DNA from: Enterocloster clostridioformis
GTDB lineage: Bacteria; Bacillota; Clostridia; Lachnospirales; Lachnospiraceae
Length of the DNA stretch: 64,000 nt
Reading direction: 5' to 3'
Assembly (NCBI RefSeq): GCF_020297485.1
Contig: NZ_JAIWZC010000001.1
Span: forward strand, 3,100,001-3,164,000
Shown: in pieces, positions 53,803 through 60,792 of the stretch
How the letters are laid out: each line of letters begins with the position of its first letter
How positions within the stretch are numbered: position 1 is the stretch's first letter
Made by a program: the position numbers and the translations under genes
The notes under the pieces: model-generated
Seen by the model: only the letters and a program-made list of their open reading frames with translations
Told to the model about the DNA's origin: nothing
Databases searched by the model: none

Positions 53803-54410
53803 GAACTACCCCGCAGCAAGCTGCGGGGTATCGAAGGTTGCAACCTCTACATATAATCCCATATGCTATACTGCTTTGTTTTCTCTACGTTTTTATAGAT
53901 TGTTTTATAATTTTTTTCCTGTCCCTGTTCTTTCACATATCTACTTATGATTTGCTCATTCCCATGTTCACTCACCGTTGCTACGTAATAGCCATCTGTC
54001 CAGAATTCTCCTCCCCACAATTTTTTCTTCACTTGTGGACATTTCGCGAACACCTCCCGGGCTATGATGCTCTTCACTATTTGGATGATTTTTTTTGGAC
54101 TATATGTAGGCACTGACTGGATAAGAAAATGTATATGGTCTTTATCTGTACCTACTTCCAAAAATCTTATTTCATACCTTTCCTGAATTCCCTCACACGT
54201 TTCTTTGATTACCCTATCTACATCTTCATCTATTACTACTCTTCTATATTTTGTTGGACATACGAAATGATACATGAGTACTGATACATTGTGTGACTTG
54301 CGTATTGTTTCACTCATCACACAATTTCTCCTTTCCTTTTTCCTCTAGTATATCACTTCCTCCATGTCTTGAAAAAGTTTGTTACGCAGCAAGCTGCGGG
54401 GAATTAAACC
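53803..54410 (-). mobile_element. IS200/IS605-family element (tnpA only)
   Basis: A hairpin with the core GCAGCAAGCTGC occurs on both sides of the transposase (53812-53832 and 54383-54400), in the same orientation, as required for single-strand IS200/IS605 ends. No tnpB follows. Outer limits are approximate because such elements make no target duplication. Confidence 0.75.
53847..54320 (-). CDS. tnpA: IS200/IS605 family transposase TnpA (Y1 HUH)
   Basis: The 157-residue protein has the HUH pair in GTDKDHIHFLIQ, FVCPTKYRRVVID near the N-terminus and the Tyr helix region HGNEQIISRYVKEQG. The family cuts and rejoins single-stranded DNA at subterminal hairpins during replication. It begins GTG (or ATG three bases on), with AAAGGAG upstream. 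The frame is complete and the hairpins are intact, so the element may be mobile. Confidence 0.93.
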   Translation of the reverse strand: MMSETIRKSHNVSVLMYHFVCPTKYRRVVIDEDVDRVIKETCEGIQERYEIRFLEVGTDKDHIHFLIQSVPTYSPKKIIQIVKSIIAREVFAKCPQVKKKLWGGEFWTDGYYVATVSEHGNEQIISRYVKEQGQEKNYKTIYKNVEKTKQYSIWDYM

Positions 54411-54531
54411 CTCTTTTTGATTAAATGCTGTGACAGACGCCGGGCACTCTGCCCGCTGTTATTCATACAGGGCAGGACGTAAGCAATGTTCAAGCATGCT
54501 CTGTAATCAAGCAATCGAGGAGGAATTCATA

Positions 54532-56679
54532 ATGAAAAAAAGAAAAAGCCTGGCGGCACGAATCACCGCAGCCCGGGCAGCCACCCCCCGGACAGCCCTG
54601 GCGCTGACAGCCGCGGTACTGGCAGCAGCCATGGCTGTCACCGGATGCTCCGGTACAGGCCGGACAGAAACAGAACCGGAGAGCCAGACTGAAATCACGG
54701 CCGGCCCGGCAGTTAACCGGCCTGAAAGCCCCAAGCAGTCCCTTGGCAGCCAATCCGGCGAAGGTCCGGCAGCCTATGTGGATGATTTCTATGACGCGGT
54801 AAACCATGACACGCTGGAAAGCTGGGAGATTCCGGCTGAACAGGCCGATATGAGCTGGTTCAGAAAGGCGCGGGAGGACAATTATTCCAAGGTAAATGAC
54901 CTGATTCGCCAGGCGTCGTCCGAAGCAGGCCAGACACTTCAGGAAGCCGGAAGCGACCTGTACAACATACGCGCGCTGAATCTGACCGGTCTGGACCGGG
55001 AGACCAGGGACAGGGAAGGGTACGGCCGGACAACCGGAGCATTTTTAAAGGAAATAGATTCAGCGGACTCTGTCACCGGGCTTCTGAAGGCATGCCTTCA
55101 GTTCCAGAGGAATACCGGGCTGTTCAGCCTTATGGGCTGGTATTATGAAGGGGACAGTGAGGACTCCTCGGTAAAGGTCCTCTATCTCTCGCAGCCGGAT
55201 TCCGGTCTCAGGAGGGAAGTCTGGTTCTCCGAAGACGCATCCAACCAGAAGCGGGTGGAGGAATACAAAAAATATCTCACAAAGCTTCACGAAAACAACG
55301 GCCTGAGCCCGGAGGAAGCTGCGGCCACCGTAGCCCGGGTAACGGATATGATGAAGGAACTGGCATCCTCCACCCTTAAGATAGAGGAGGTCTATGACGC
55401 GGAAAAAACATACAATGTCTGCACAGCCGGCGAGGCAGCAAACCTGTATTCCGGCGCCCTGCCCTTCAGCCTTCTAAACAGCATATTCGGCATACTGGAA
55501 GGTGAAAAGACAGTTGTCTCCCAGCCGGATGCCTGCAGGAAGCTTGGAAGCTATCTGAAGGAAGAAAACCTACCTCTCCTGAAAGAATATGTCAAAACCT
55601 GTCTCTATTCGGATCTGTCCATGATGACAGACACCGCTTCCCTGGCTGCTGCCCAGGAGTATCAGACAGCTGCAGGCGGTATAGAAAAGAGAAAGGATTT
55701 TGAGAGGACCGTGTCTGAAACAGTCCAGGAAAAACTTGGTTTCCAGTGCGGCCGTGTATTCTGTGAAACCTATTTTAACGAGGACGCCAAACAGGATGTG
55801 GCTTCCATCATCCGTCAAATCATAGATGTATACGACAACCGCCTTGCCCATATGGAATGGATGACAGAATCCACCCGTCAGGAGGCAAGGAAAAAACTGA
55901 AAGCCATTACAGTCAAGGTTGGTTATCCCGACCAATGGCCCCAGGACAAATACAGCCTGGTACTGAAATCCCCGGACGAGGGCGGCGTCTACATTGACAA
56001 TATCATGGAAATCCTGAAGGCATCCCAGGACTACTCCTTTAAGACCAGACACGACCCGGTGGACCGGAATGAATGGGGCATGACGCCCCAGACAGTCAAT
56101 GCCTATTATAACCCCGGAAACAACGAAATCGTGTTTCCGGCCGGAATCCTTCAGGCCCCGTTTTATGACCCGGAGGCAGAGCCTGTGGCCAACCTGGGAG
56201 GCATCGGTGCTGTCATCGGCCACGAAATCACCCATGCATTTGACACAAGCGGTTCCCAGTATGATGAAAAGGGAAACCTGCGGGATTGGTGGACTGCCCA
56301 GGATAAACAGCGTTTCAGGGAACTGGCCCAAAAGGTCATTGACTACTATGATACCATGGAAGTAAACGGCATCCAGGTAAACGGTACACTGAGCGTTACG
56401 GAAAATATCGCCGACCTGGGCGGCGTTTCCTGCATAACAGAAATAGCCAGGGAAAAGGGATATGACCTGAAGGAGCTGTACCATGCCTATGGTGTCATAT
56501 GGGCCACAAAATACAGGGATGAATACCTTTCCTACATCATGACCAATGATACACATTCCCCTGGCATCACCAGGGTAAATGCCGTACTGTCCGCCACCGA
56601 TGACTTTTATACTGCCTTTGGAGTCAAGGAGGGCGACGGGATGTACCGCAGGCCGGAGGACAGGCCCCATATCTGGTAG
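54532..56679 (+). CDS. M13-family (neprilysin/PepO) lipoprotein metallopeptidase
   Basis: The 715-residue protein has a long basic signal region and a lipobox (AVTGCSG, Cys near residue 40). The M13 active site follows: NAYYNPGNNEIVFPAGIL, the zinc motif GHEITHAFDTSGSQYDE (His about residue 564) and ENIADLGGVSC with the third ligand Glu. The start at 54532 has GGAGGAATTCATA upstream. It is a cell-surface oligopeptidase. Its stop codon is part of the 8-bp target duplication of the IS256-family element that follows, so the insertion did not alter the protein. Confidence 0.93.
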   Translation: MKKRKSLAARITAARAATPRTALALTAAVLAAAMAVTGCSGTGRTETEPESQTEITAGPAVNRPESPKQSLGSQSGEGPAAYVDDFYDAVNHDTLESWEIPAEQADMSWFRKAREDNYSKVNDLIRQASSEAGQTLQEAGSDLYNIRALNLTGLDRETRDREGYGRTTGAFLKEIDSADSVTGLLKACLQFQRNTGLFSLMGWYYEGDSEDSSVKVLYLSQPDSGLRREVWFSEDASNQKRVEEYKKYLTKLHENNGLSPEEAAATVARVTDMMKELASSTLKIEEVYDAEKTYNVCTAGEAANLYSGALPFSLLNSIFGILEGEKTVVSQPDACRKLGSYLKEENLPLLKEYVKTCLYSDLSMMTDTASLAAAQEYQTAAGGIEKRKDFERTVSETVQEKLGFQCGRVFCETYFNEDAKQDVASIIRQIIDVYDNRLAHMEWMTESTRQEARKKLKAITVKVGYPDQWPQDKYSLVLKSPDEGGVYIDNIMEILKASQDYSFKTRHDPVDRNEWGMTPQTVNAYYNPGNNEIVFPAGILQAPFYDPEAEPVANLGGIGAVIGHEITHAFDTSGSQYDEKGNLRDWWTAQDKQRFRELAQKVIDYYDTMEVNGIQVNGTLSVTENIADLGGVSCITEIAREKGYDLKELYHAYGVIWATKYRDEYLSYIMTNDTHSPGITRVNAVLSATDDFYTAFGVKEGDGMYRRPEDRPHIW

Positions 56680-56683
56680 AAAT
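56676..56683. repeat. Left target site duplication GTAGAAAT
   Basis: It is identical to 58724-58731 and flanks the IS256-family element; it includes the TAG stop of the peptidase gene. Confidence 0.9.
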
Positions 56684-56736
56684 GAGAGTATGAAAAAAAG
56701 TCTGTAAATTGAGATCTTCTATGATAAGTTAATGAG

Positions 56737-56769
56737 AAAGGTAGGTGGATGTCGTGACCACCTACCTTT
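56737..56769 (+). terminator. Strong hairpin near the left end of the IS256-like element
   Basis: AAAGGTAGGTGG and CCACCTACCTTT form a 12-bp stem with a 9-base loop. It may block readthrough into the element from the M13 gene. Confidence 0.6.
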
Positions 56770-56863
56770 ACTATACGGATGCTTTTGGATTCTGTCAAGA
56801 TGTATTGGAAAATCCCATCAAATTATGGTACACTTCTTACAGGAAAACATCAGGAGGTGTGCC

Positions 56864-57139
56864 ATGAAGCTAAAAACAGACGATCCCTTTGTACCTGAAG
56901 ATATCAGGGCAAAGATCAATGGACTGCAGTCCCTGCTGGATCATGCAGCCGACTTATACAGTGATATCTATAGCTGGTATGACAGTGAACTGAAATCCTA
57001 TGACCCGAAAGCCACCGCAGACGATGAACTGTTTGACCCTGGCACAGGGACTGTTGTGGAGGGGATCGATTACCTGTCTATCATGGAATCCCTGTCAGAG
57101 CTGCAGACAGCCAACGAATGTAAAATGCAGAGGGATTAA
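56864..57139 (+). CDS. Passenger protein of the IS256-like element (91 aa, unknown)
   Basis: The ORF begins MKLKTDDPFVPEDIRAKING with ATCAGGAGGTGTGCC as ribosome site. It is acidic and helical (LLDHAADLYSDIYSWYDSEL), with no transmembrane part. I cannot assign a family. It is convergent with the RHH-like gene: their stops share TTAA (57136-57139). It sits inside the mobile element, 180 bases from its left end, so it should move with it. Confidence 0.65.
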   Translation: MKLKTDDPFVPEDIRAKINGLQSLLDHAADLYSDIYSWYDSELKSYDPKATADDELFDPGTGTVVEGIDYLSIMESLSELQTANECKMQRD

Positions 57140-57348
57140 CCTTGTGTCCCATCGGCCTGGCCTCTGGCGATGTCTTCCCGTATCAGGGCCTTGATGGCCC
57201 CTTGGACGGAAGTGTCCCTGCCATATTTGTGCTGTCTGACCCAGGCCAGGATATCTGCATCTGTCTTCATATTCAGTTTTAACTTCACCTGTACAGTATT
57301 ATAGCTGTCGTACCTGTCCTGAGCATCGTATTTTGAAAATCCATACAT
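57136..57348 (-). CDS. Ribbon-helix-helix-like DNA-binding protein (70 aa), passenger gene
   Basis: The core VQVKLKLNMKTDADILAWVR then SVQGAIKALIREDIARG has the beta strand, helix, turn, helix pattern of RHH repressors from plasmids and conjugative elements. AAAGGAGCTTTCC precedes the ATG. It follows the transposase stop by 45 bases on the same strand, and a perfect 16-bp palindrome lies between, a likely operator. It may control its own and transposase expression, or be an antitoxin to an unidentified partner. Confidence 0.7.
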   Translation of the reverse strand: MYGFSKYDAQDRYDSYNTVQVKLKLNMKTDADILAWVRQHKYGRDTSVQGAIKALIREDIARGQADGTQG

Positions 57349-57365
57349 GGAAAGCTCCTTTCCGG

Positions 57366-57381
57366 ATAGGTGTACACCTAT
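57366..57381. promoter_or_regulatory. 16-bp perfect palindrome ATAGGTGTACACCTAT
   Basis: It lies between the transposase stop and the RHH-like gene start, 18 bases before the ATG. Its size fits an RHH tetramer or similar operator. Confidence 0.6.
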
Positions 57382-57393
57382 GCCTGTGCGCTC

Positions 57394-58638
57394 TTATTCC
57401 GGCAGTCTGCCTTCGTACATAATGGACAGTTCCCCATAGACCTGCCCCCAGTTGCGGATGGGCATGGTCCACTTCTTCGTCGCCTCGAACGTGGCCAGGT
57501 ACAGAGCCTTTAAGAGCGCCGTGCTGCCCGGGAACACGCTCCGCTGGCGGTTGAGCTTCCGGTAGGTAGAGTTGAGGCTCTCGATCGCGTTGGTAGTATA
57601 GATCACCTTCCTGACCTCCATGGAAAACTTGAAGATGGGGGATACCACATCCCAGTTGTCATGCCAGCGTTTCATTGAGTTGGGGTACTTTGGCGTCCAC
57701 TTTTCCGTCACCTTCTCCAGCGCCTCCAGCGCCTTTTCCTCGTTTGCGGCATGGTAGATGGTTTTCAGGTCCGTGGCAAATGCTTTCCGGTCCTTGTCGG
57801 AGACGTATTTCAGCGTGTTCCGTACCATATGTACGATGCAGCGCTGCTGCTCCGTCTTCGGGAATGCCGCCGTTATGGCTTCCTTAATGCCCGTGAGCCC
57901 GTCCGAGCAGAGAATGAGGATATCCTTCACACCGCGGTTCTTCAACTCGTTCAGAACGCAGAGCCAGTACTTGGAGCTTTCATTCTCCCCGATCTGTATG
58001 CTCAGGACTTCCTTTTTACCTTCCAGCGTAAGGCCGAGGATGACATAGGCGGCAAGCTTGCGGATTACCCCGTCCTCCCGCACGGAATAATGGATTGCGT
58101 CGATGTAGACCACGGGATAGACTTCCTCCAGCGGGCGGTTCTGCCAGTCTTCAATCTGCGGCAGTATCTTGTCCGTCACGTCCGAGATGAACCCTTCCGA
58201 AGCCTCAAAACCATAAATGTCCATCAAGGTATCCGAGATTTGGCGGGTTGTCATGCCTTTTGCATACATGGATATGATCTTCTGGTCAATGCCGGAAATG
58301 TCCTTCTGGCGCTTTCTTACCACCTGGGGTTCAAACGTGGACTTCCTGTCCTGGGGCACCTGGATGTCCATGCTCCCGAAGCTGCTGTTGATCCGCTTGG
58401 GCTTGTAGCCATTGCGGTAATCATCCGAATCCGACCGTTCTGACCTCCCATAGCCGAGATGCTCATCCATCTCCGCTTCCATCATCTCCTTCAGGGTGCT
58501 CCCCAGCAGGTCTTTGAGGGCTTCCTGGATATCCTCCGCAGTCTGGATGTCATACTCTTCCAGGAGCTGATGGACGATGTTCCTTTTCCCCTCCGTCATG
58601 ACTACTTTGTGTACGGGCTGTTTTTCTCTTCTTGCCAT
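57394..58638 (-). CDS. IS256-family (Mutator-type) transposase
   Basis: The 414-residue DDE transposase has the three acidic regions: VVYIDAIHYSVRED, LILCSDGLTGIKEAI and TTNAIESLNSTYRKLN. EMMEAEMDEHLGYGRSERSD lies near the N-terminus and the RCIVHMVRN motif in the middle. The start at 58638 has AAGGAGG 12 bases upstream; a TTG/ATG extension is not needed. All catalytic residues are present, so the element may be active. Confidence 0.94.
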   Translation of the reverse strand: MARREKQPVHKVVMTEGKRNIVHQLLEEYDIQTAEDIQEALKDLLGSTLKEMMEAEMDEHLGYGRSERSDSDDYRNGYKPKRINSSFGSMDIQVPQDRKSTFEPQVVRKRQKDISGIDQKIISMYAKGMTTRQISDTLMDIYGFEASEGFISDVTDKILPQIEDWQNRPLEEVYPVVYIDAIHYSVREDGVIRKLAAYVILGLTLEGKKEVLSIQIGENESSKYWLCVLNELKNRGVKDILILCSDGLTGIKEAITAAFPKTEQQRCIVHMVRNTLKYVSDKDRKAFATDLKTIYHAANEEKALEALEKVTEKWTPKYPNSMKRWHDNWDVVSPIFKFSMEVRKVIYTTNAIESLNSTYRKLNRQRSVFPGSTALLKALYLATFEATKKWTMPIRNWGQVYGELSIMYEGRLPE

Positions 58639-58723
58639 AATAATAGGCCTCCTTATGATAATAGATTTTATCATAGAAGACCTAATGCTTAATAGCTATT
58701 TACAGAAAAACTTTCATACTCTC

Positions 58724-58731
58724 GTAGAAAT
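58724..58731. repeat. Right target site duplication GTAGAAAT
   Basis: It matches 56676-56683 exactly. Confidence 0.9.
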
Positions 58732-58752
58732 ATTTTCATATATCCAAAATGT

Positions 58753-58786
58753 CAGAGTCCGGGAAGCAGCTGCCTCCCGGACTCTG
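58753..58786 (-). terminator. Terminator after the M3 peptidase gene
   Basis: CAGAGTCCGGGA and TCCCGGACTCTG form a long stem with a GCAGCTGC inner part, twelve bases past the stop of the M3 gene. Confidence 0.75.
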
Positions 58787-58797
58787 TATTGCCATTA

Positions 58798-60792
58798 TTA
58801 CTCTTCTCTCTTCTTCCTGACAATCAGCCAGATGATTACAAACCCGGTGCATAAAATCATAACCTGAAATATAAGGATGACACAGATGCCTGCCAGCACC
58901 AGAAGGCCTACAACCCTTAATCCGCTGTCAGAACTTCCCTCAAGGTCCGTTCCTGCCTGGCCCGCGTCCTCCTGTGACGGAACTTCGGATCCCTCACCAT
59001 CCTGCTCCAGTCCCTGGAGCCTGCGCACATCCCCGGCCAGGGATTCCAGTTCCCTGCTGTCAAACACATCCCGCAGCCCGCAGCGGTTCATGGTGCCGCA
59101 ATAAGGTGCATCCAGACCTTCATGCAAAAGTCCCATGTAGGTATCCACAGCGCCGTCCCAGTCGCTCCTGGACATGGTCCAGAGGTCAAGGGCCGACAGC
59201 GCCGAGGTTCCATATCCCATATAGTACAGGGGGCTGTAAAACAAATGGGACACATCCACCCAGTCATAGCACACACCCTCATCGTAGACATCATAATACC
59301 ATCCATGATAGGAATCCTGTATCTCTTTGAATGTGCGGTTCATGTCCTCCAGACTCATGTCCGGCTCCATGTAAACAGCTTCCTCAAATTCCTGCAGCAT
59401 GCAGGACATAATTGTCACATACAGCATATCCGTAACGGACTCAAACTCAAAGGCCTCTGCCCCTTCGCCGAACATATCCCCCGCATACTGGTTGGCCAGC
59501 ATCTCCAATCCCTGTGACTGGACCTCGCACACATCCACACTGTAACCCTGGAACAGCTCAGGCACCGAATTATAATAATAGGAGCTGAAATGCCCGAATT
59601 CATGAATCAGGGACTGGTAATCCGTAAATGTGTGGTTTCTGTTGATGAAAATAAATGCGTCTCCATAGCTTGGGAACCCTACGGTATAATTATTATCCAC
59701 CCGGTCCTGTCCGTCTTCCCCTGACCGGATATCATACAGCTCATTGTCCTGCATATACCGGAAAATCTCACCCAGCTCAGGATTCACCGACTTGACCGTT
59801 CTTCCCACACAGGCCAGTATATCCTCTGTGGAACTCTCTTCCATAAGGTCCAGGGAGTCATAGGATTCCTGGGCCACATCCATATGCCAGATGTCATTAT
59901 TCAGGGGAACAATACTGGTCTTTACATCCGCGCAAAGCTCCTCTGCATCCTGAAGGGTATAGTCCCTTCCGTAAACAGCCTCAAACGAATACTGGGCATA
60001 GTTATCATAGCCCTTAAGCTCCGCTATCCGGCGGCGCACCTGAACAAGTTCCCGGAACTTGCTGCCCAGCACCCGGTTCTTTTCCCTGACCAATGCATCC
60101 TCTATCTCTGCATATTGCCCATCGTCAAGGTCCGGTTCCCGTTCCAGCCGGCTGTAGCTCCACTGTCCGTTCTCCAGCTCCACCGTAAAATCACCGGCAG
60201 CCAGTTTATCATACTCCCTGAGAAGCTCCTGCTCCTTCCGGTTCAGTTCGGTCAGCTCCCCTGTATTTTCCCTGTAATATTCGATGTAAGGCGCATTTTC
60301 AATCCCCATCTTATCCGCCAGGACTTTTTTATAGGATGAATTCATTCCCTTTTTTAGACAAGCCGCGGCCTTATCCCCCATCTCGGAATAAATGTCCGTA
60401 GTATATGCCTGCTCTGAGGCAGCCTGCTCATCCGACACATCTGCGTCATATTCCAGCTGGGCCATATAAGTCAGGGTGGCCAGACGGTCATACTCATCCA
60501 CAATGGCATCGTAGAGCCTCAGCACTTCCTCATCCCGGCCTTCAACAGCACAGGCCTGTTCAAAGTCAGCCATGGCCTGTTCCATGACAGCCGGGTCATA
60601 ATGCTCGTATGGCCTCCGGGAATAGGGTACGGCTTCATGGGCCATCACGCCGGCCACGCCGGCATTTCCCGCTGCCTGGGCAGCCAATCTTTCCTGAGCC
60701 GCGCCGCAGGCGGCAATGGACAGGGACATCACCAAAGTCAGGGCCAGCGCCGCCCCGCGCCTCAGATTCCTTTTCCACATTCCTTTATTCAC
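58798..60792 (-). CDS. M3-family lipoprotein metallopeptidase
   Basis: The 664-residue protein has a signal with a lipobox (SIAACGAAQ, Cys near 29), a long helical body, the zinc motif LIHEFGHFSSYYY (His about residue 397) and a C-terminal transmembrane helix followed by KKREE. That topology is unusual because the protein has lipid and transmembrane anchors at opposite ends. Homologues act on oligopeptides. It begins GTG with AAGGAGG seven bases upstream. It shares the surface-peptidase theme with the M13 gene just beyond the IS256-like element. Confidence 0.85.
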   Translation of the reverse strand: MNKGMWKRNLRRGAALALTLVMSLSIAACGAAQERLAAQAAGNAGVAGVMAHEAVPYSRRPYEHYDPAVMEQAMADFEQACAVEGRDEEVLRLYDAIVDEYDRLATLTYMAQLEYDADVSDEQAASEQAYTTDIYSEMGDKAAACLKKGMNSSYKKVLADKMGIENAPYIEYYRENTGELTELNRKEQELLREYDKLAAGDFTVELENGQWSYSRLEREPDLDDGQYAEIEDALVREKNRVLGSKFRELVQVRRRIAELKGYDNYAQYSFEAVYGRDYTLQDAEELCADVKTSIVPLNNDIWHMDVAQESYDSLDLMEESSTEDILACVGRTVKSVNPELGEIFRYMQDNELYDIRSGEDGQDRVDNNYTVGFPSYGDAFIFINRNHTFTDYQSLIHEFGHFSSYYYNSVPELFQGYSVDVCEVQSQGLEMLANQYAGDMFGEGAEAFEFESVTDMLYVTIMSCMLQEFEEAVYMEPDMSLEDMNRTFKEIQDSYHGWYYDVYDEGVCYDWVDVSHLFYSPLYYMGYGTSALSALDLWTMSRSDWDGAVDTYMGLLHEGLDAPYCGTMNRCGLRDVFDSRELESLAGDVRRLQGLEQDGEGSEVPSQEDAGQAGTDLEGSSDSGLRVVGLLVLAGICVILIFQVMILCTGFVIIWLIVRKKREE

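Follow-up and report, generated by a model that had tools for sequence, protein, structure and literature searches.

The usual view of insertion sequences (ISs) is that self-control relies on the transposase, its promoter and antisense RNA. In the IS256 family, a single transposase gene in about 1.3–1.5 kb is the usual organization, not a defining feature of homology. Excerpts of published work describe the plain IS organization for 109/109 IS256-type elements (PMC3942029), name TGTAAA as the end motif of the family, and treat circle-driven transposase expression as an established theme; the 1503-bp ISCth4 has a junction promoter assembled from both ends (PMC7780238).

Here we describe an unusual relative within the window, the whole 64,000-nt stretch of Enterocloster clostridioformis DNA that was analyzed. 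Sequence comparisons identify positions 56684–58723 as an IS256-family IS enlarged by two accessory genes, which encode a 70-aa RHH-like protein and a 91-aa protein (p91). Like ISCth4 and IS256, as far as the excerpted accounts go, the element has a Transposase_mut/IS256 transposase, TGTAAA ends, 8-bp duplications and a similar end length, but it differs by its 2040 bp and two extra genes. Whereas the fusion promoter of ISCth4 is described in the same excerpts as split between its ends, the window element has a complete outward promoter inside one end. It shares extra ORFs between IS ends with transporter ISs (tISs) such as tISKpn21 and tISRel10 (excerpts of PMC10132070 and PMC9330008), but its ORFs have relatives in more than one family of transposons, and one of the two appears tied to an operator at the IS promoter. 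The RHH plasmid copy-number repressors of the CopG/RepA type offer a second parallel (CopG role: PMC3053259, in part), with a small RHH-like protein, a palindrome before its own gene and a proposed copy-number brake; the 70-aa protein, however, lacks a match to a CopG/RHH family model and would act on a transposon. As with the transient junction promoter of IS911-type elements, transposase expression would rise only in the circle (excerpts of PMC7780238), but here the loop is proposed to be closed by a dedicated repressor encoded after the transposase. No such element is described in the excerpts of open-licence literature on IS256 passenger genes, on RHH proteins together with ISs, or on Enterocloster together with IS256. 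Our preferred model, to which we assign a probability of roughly 0.5, is that the RHH-like protein would bind and repress a circle-crossing promoter, giving negative feedback.

Architecture of the element

The element and its boundaries comprise the following features, where the right end of the window element is, by naming convention, the transposase-proximal end.

56684–58723, no strand: whole IS256-family element, 2040 bp; 15 full-length host copies, of which 14 have 8-bp duplications
56676–56683, no strand: target-site duplication, left copy, GTAGAAAT, exact repeat
58724–58731, no strand: target-site duplication, right copy, GTAGAAAT, exact repeat
56684–56709, + strand: left inverted repeat (transposase-distal end), 26 nt, 81% complementary to 58698–58723
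58698–58723, − strand: right inverted repeat (transposase-proximal end), 26 nt, 81% complementary to 56684–56709
56712–56727, + strand: inner inverted repeat, left, 16 nt, 94% complementary to 58668–58683
58668–58683, − strand: inner inverted repeat, right, 16 nt, 94% complementary to 56712–56727
57394–58638, − strand: IS256-family (Transposase_mut) transposase, 414 aa, ATG at 58638, from the ORF list and family models
57136–57348, − strand: RHH-like protein, 70 aa, proposed repressor, from the ORF list, homologs and selection
56864–57139, + strand: p91, 91-aa acidic helical protein, from the ORF list, homologs, structure model and selection

The transposase, whose mechanical ORF starts at 58674 (426 aa), matches the IS256 model NF033543 at 415.7 bits (cut-off 150) and PF00872 at 388.7 bits (cut-off 21), placing it within the family. 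Two further family hallmarks are present, namely the TGTAAA motif, found as CTGTAAAT in both 26-nt ends, and a target duplication in the 8–9 bp range (8 bp in 14/15 full-length copies). The usual one-gene layout is replaced by three genes in 2040 bp, and the ends enclosing both extra ORFs recur with 8-bp duplications, as expected of a tIS. The RHH-like gene lies on the transposase strand, 45 bp downstream of the transposase, and its stop overlaps that of the convergent p91 by 4 bases. A sequence-only reading of this locus had described near-identical inverted ends, an exact 8-bp duplication, an intact transposase and convergent 70- and 91-residue genes inside the ends; all of these were confirmed, the ends being the 26-nt (81%) and inner 16-nt (94%) pairs with GTAGAAAT on both sides, and the ORFs being as described. 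An Rfam search of 56000–59500 returned zero matches.

The insertion at 56684 falls precisely on the stop codon of a long ORF (54430–56679) that lies upstream, and the duplicated 8 bp contain its TAG. Elsewhere in the window, a 157-aa ORF at 53847–54320 (− strand) resembles, we assume, an IS200/IS605-type TnpA.

Recent spread and sister elements

The host genome (5.87 Mb, two contigs) holds 15 full-length copies with identical boundaries, of which 13 are identical and two carry one mismatch. Perfect 8-bp duplications, all different in sequence, flank 14 of them, the sole exception being L009. One full-length and one right-truncated copy lie on the second contig, and the genome also contains truncated copies, one copy split by an insertion, and two full-length relatives of ~85% identity (L018 with a duplication, L019 without). 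To judge from these copies, the element is a real end-to-end unit and has been recently active, and the earlier suggestion of an enlarged transposon holds: the 2040-bp unit recurs end to end with 8-bp duplications. The split copy, L153 (G000:C1:1434000-1442500), is interrupted within the transposase gene by a ~3.5-kb insertion, with six element bases repeated on both sides of the insert.

Beyond the host, the unit matched 25/61 genomes searched (host included), and in several of the 25 the match covered no more than the transposase plus the outermost ~45 bp on the left. Ten distinct left ends have the transposase directly after them, without RHH or p91, and belong to ordinary IS256s, while three distinct IS256 left ends, those of L062, L063 and one copy in L060, are followed by RHH without p91. 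There are thus three layouts among IS256 relatives: plain, RHH only, and RHH with p91. It had been anticipated that the left end at 56684 might be chance similarity, with copies elsewhere ending close to the transposase gene; the second part is true only of sister lineages without RHH, and their left ends share homology with that of the window element. A chance left end is ruled out by the 15 copies with identical boundaries.

Several arrangements merit separate mention. At L060:1795-4662, two RHH-bearing IS256 copies, one without p91, stand face to face ~1.3 kb apart. A copy in G002 (L031), a genome of the same genus, and one in [Clostridium] clostridioforme AGR2157 (L060) have a common flank. 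In L244 and L243, IS256-type ends occur in tandem or end to end, two left-end cores of L244 being 58 bp apart; these arrangements are possibly circle-like or head-to-tail junctions.

An RHH-like protein behind a candidate operator

The name RHH-like comes from the sequence pattern alone (TQVKLKLN...DIL...QGAIKALIREDI). The 70-aa protein matches neither a curated RHH model nor a solved RHH fold, with no Pfam or NCBIfam match and no PDB profile match at E<=1, and gives only a weak PHROG match (E 0.2). In an AlphaFold single-chain model of low confidence (pLDDT 60), the expected strand was absent. We therefore use RHH as a working name for a fold that neither AlphaFold nor family models supported.

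Upstream of the gene lies a candidate operator.

57366–57381, no strand: perfect 16-bp palindrome ATAGGTGTACACCTAT, immediately before the RHH gene and proposed as its operator

The palindrome TAGGTGTACACCTA there has the half-site TAGGTG. It precedes RHH in all 10 RHH-bearing IS256 copies compared; L019, L061, L063 and one copy in L060 have it twice, with a spacing of 24 bp. Genome-wide, WAGGTGTACACCTW has 20 sites in the 5.87-Mb host genome versus 0 for the control, and by coordinates every one of the 20 adjoins an IS-borne RHH gene, covering 19/20 RHH loci (one with two sites); the twentieth locus is the split copy L153, in which one base of the palindrome is changed. A TAGGTATATACCTA-like palindrome also occupies this position in front of two distant stand-alone RHH genes, in L070 and in L144, where it overlies a TATACT −10. 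Most other distant RHH genes compared lack the palindrome.

Three observations count against the model. The RHH genes of an IS21 (L064) and an IS1634 (L065) have no such palindrome adjoining, the 14-mer is not specific outside the host, turning up in 48 stretches of viral contigs, and the window RHH gene shows no clear promoter of its own beneath the palindrome.

The left end places a hairpin beside a predicted outward promoter

The earlier reading had noted one operator-like palindrome. There are in fact two, the perfect palindrome above and a long hairpin at the left end, where an outward promoter also lies.

56737–56769, no strand: left-end hairpin AAAGGTAGGTGG-9-CCACCTACCTTT, proposed second RHH site (TAGGTG/CACCTA), from repeat and fold analysis
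56770–56798, − strand: outward promoter TTGACA-17-TATAGT, 11/12, −35 at 56798–56793 and −10 at 56775–56770, from a promoter scan

A perfect TTGACA, with 10–11/12 matches, is found in 19/24 distinct left ends, the others being L150, L236, L237, L240 and L244. The best transposase-strand promoter match in the right end reaches just 8/12. Counting against the model, promoter-like sites in the element do not exceed the number in shuffles (3 versus 2.4 expected), although the outward one is conserved. The start of the outward promoter likely falls in a hairpin arm.

The half-site TAGGTG is present in the hairpin of 6/6 distinct RHH-bearing left ends, three of them without p91, compared with 0/10 that have a transposase and no RHH and 0/9 with neither gene found within 1 kb, some of these at contig ends. 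CACCTA occupies the opposite arm in 5/6, with CACCTG in L062. These counts omit left ends with fewer than 60 bases downstream of the core, namely L230 (contig end, TAGGTG present), and L055, which the search pattern missed and which has no RHH and a hairpin without TAGGTG. The comparison indicates that the TAGGTG stem tracks RHH, not p91, as a correlation over few lineages: the six RHH-bearing left ends are related and are not six independent observations. In a tree of transposase C-termini, the RHH-bearing rows need two changes, and L062 groups with the RHH-less L042; here the long branch of L062 represents a fragment of 119 residues, and good support is limited to 2/12 inner branches. The tree covers rows with a 96-residue C-terminal match, which leaves out L031, L060 and L063 among others, so that a second RHH-bearing branch is represented by L062 alone. 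The right-end repeats compared all come from RHH-bearing elements and hence offer no contrast for an RHH site there.

The strongest competing explanation, which we nonetheless consider rather unlikely, is that the hairpin acts only as an RNA or transcription barrier (a terminator or 5′ stabilizer), its operator likeness being inherited and RHH regulating only itself. A hairpin does stand at this spot in every intact sister left end, with or without RHH; the one at 56737–56769 folds strongly (z −4.4 for one strand, −5.2 for the other), and in sisters a T-rich tract follows on the + strand. The half-site spacing also varies, at 2 bp before the RHH gene versus 8, 9 or 11 bp in left-end hairpins, an observation that favors this explanation and weighs against our model. 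However, the stem sequence is diverse in RHH-less sisters, whereas the TAGGTG stem is constant with RHH, including in L062 on a separate transposase branch, and elements with RHH have no gap between the stem and the −10 of the outward promoter.

A proposed feedback model for copy number

Under the preferred model, repression of a circle-crossing promoter, the RHH-like protein would be a DNA-binding repressor that recognizes TAGGTGTACACCTA before its own gene and also the TAGGTG...CACCTA arms of the left-end hairpin, abutting the −10. In an excised circle, the outward promoter would read over the end junction into the transposase gene and then RHH; made after the transposase, RHH would shut off the very circle-crossing transcription that had made it. 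Copy number would thereby be under negative feedback, exerted in trans on every copy. Where the element is integrated, the outward promoter would read into the flank, and RHH binding would silence transcription into the host. p91 would be a separate accessory protein, expressed from its own candidate promoter.

56805–56834, + strand: possible p91 promoter TTGGAA-18-TACACT, TG before the −10, 8/12, weak, read by eye and missing from the computed promoter-site list

The proposal in the sequence-only reading that the passengers may regulate transposition therefore fares differently for the two genes, gaining support from the operator half-site at the left-end outward promoter for RHH, where regulation would be plausible, and finding nothing comparable for p91. 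If the model is right, a self-encoded repressor at a circle-relevant promoter would constitute a clean, testable copy-number brake, relatives of the small genes in unrelated transposon families would mean that brakes are traded between elements, and such ISs would be predicted to drive or silence neighboring host genes according to repressor level.

The passengers are conserved but travel apart

Measured against L018, the ~85% relative, omega (NG86) is 0.010 for the transposase, 0.085 for RHH and 0.21 for p91, and these ratios indicate that both passengers are under purifying selection. Against L059, whose transposase is decayed, omega rises to 0.60 for p91 and 0.70 for RHH (NG86); selection there looks relaxed, which we count against the model.

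p91 is acidic (pI 4.16) and predicted to be all-helical (pLDDT 78.5, pTM 0.47). Pfam, NCBIfam and PDB-profile searches gave no match, nor did Foldseek of the model against the PDB and viral libraries at E<=0.001. The protein occurs in 5/397 genomes of the family and, at class level, in 1/311, the host itself; phage and plasmid records yielded none, and no relatives were found in viral contigs via the 92-aa subfamily. The 120 listed among 172 RHH and 368 p91 homologs are protein sequences only.

Both genes have relatives in other transposon families. An RHH relative lies 20 bp past istB of an IS21 in L064 (istB 224 bits, cut-off 200; istA 123.5 bits, below the cut-off of 160), on a contig that stops at the RHH stop codon. 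Another precedes the transposase within an IS1634 in L065 (331.4 bits, cut-off 100), and the two RHH proteins are 70% identical though their transposon families differ. In the L065 genome, a second IS1634 copy has 49 bp in place of the 368 bp that contain RHH in L065. IS1634 elements make long target duplications, and the L065 element fits this, since the 79 bp on its left recur in a second contig, on the right-hand side of the opposite end. No relative of this IS1634 was found in viral contigs. For p91, a complete IS21 in G642 (L222, 2438–5730) has the order istA, istB, p91, right end, with no RHH; its terminal repeats are 83 nt and 83% identical, and no target duplication was seen in its flanks. 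p91 relatives occur in 4/12 genomes of the G642 genus. A distant relative in L135 lies 13 bp past a recombinase operon in a conjugative region; the first gene of that operon is a Phage_integrase (PF00589), and the gene directly before p91 has no Pfam match above cut-off. RHH and p91 are not a fixed pair, relatives of each riding separately in other transposon families. That p91 aids or modulates transposition is a guess, made from its recurrence beside recombinase genes.

These distributions bear on two further explanations. Both genes could be passive hitch-hikers captured by chance, plain tIS cargo with no role in transposition, much as tISs of other families carry unrelated extra ORFs (excerpts of PMC10132070 and PMC9330008) and as sister IS256s move without passengers; purifying selection on both genes, the recurrence of their relatives in several transposon families and an operator half-site that tracks RHH at the element's own promoter make this quite improbable. 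RHH folds are common in antitoxins. Least probable of all, and in our judgment very unlikely, is the addiction (toxin–antitoxin) or anti-competitor pair raised in the earlier reading, rewarding hosts that keep the element, for although the two small genes are neighbors and L144 has an RHH relative with a fused nucleotidyltransferase and a HepT-like gene next to it, the window genes are convergent and form no operon. RHH is found without p91 in L062, L063, one copy in L060 and next to IS21 and IS1634; p91 is found without RHH in L135 and in the IS21 from the G301 genus. Moreover, p91 is interrupted by stops in the G002 and G638 copies, and neither gene has a PADLOC-DB match. An obligate toxin–antitoxin pair, in which two genes are kept together, is ruled out by the finding of RHH and p91 apart in several elements, each without the other.

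Returning to the preferred model of an element-encoded repressor, a broader version is possible, though doubtful: a portable transposition-control kit of gut Lachnospiraceae, in which an operator-linked repressor and a helical accessory protein move independently among IS256, IS21, IS1634 and possibly a tyrosine-recombinase element. The repressor of one element could then act in trans to set copy number within its own family, perhaps with cross-talk between families in one cell.

Three minor observations concern distant relatives. At L139:169-1450, a weak RHH relative (38% identity) lies directly upstream of an IS30-family transposase. The L144 fusion (855–1683, − strand) joins an RHH relative to a nucleotidyltransferase domain (PF18765/PF01909), adjoins the HepT-like gene (PF01934) and has a TAGGTATATAC-type double palindrome upstream. 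At L135:2572-5458, the gene order is tyrosine recombinase, small HTH-like gene, 405-aa gene and p91 relative.
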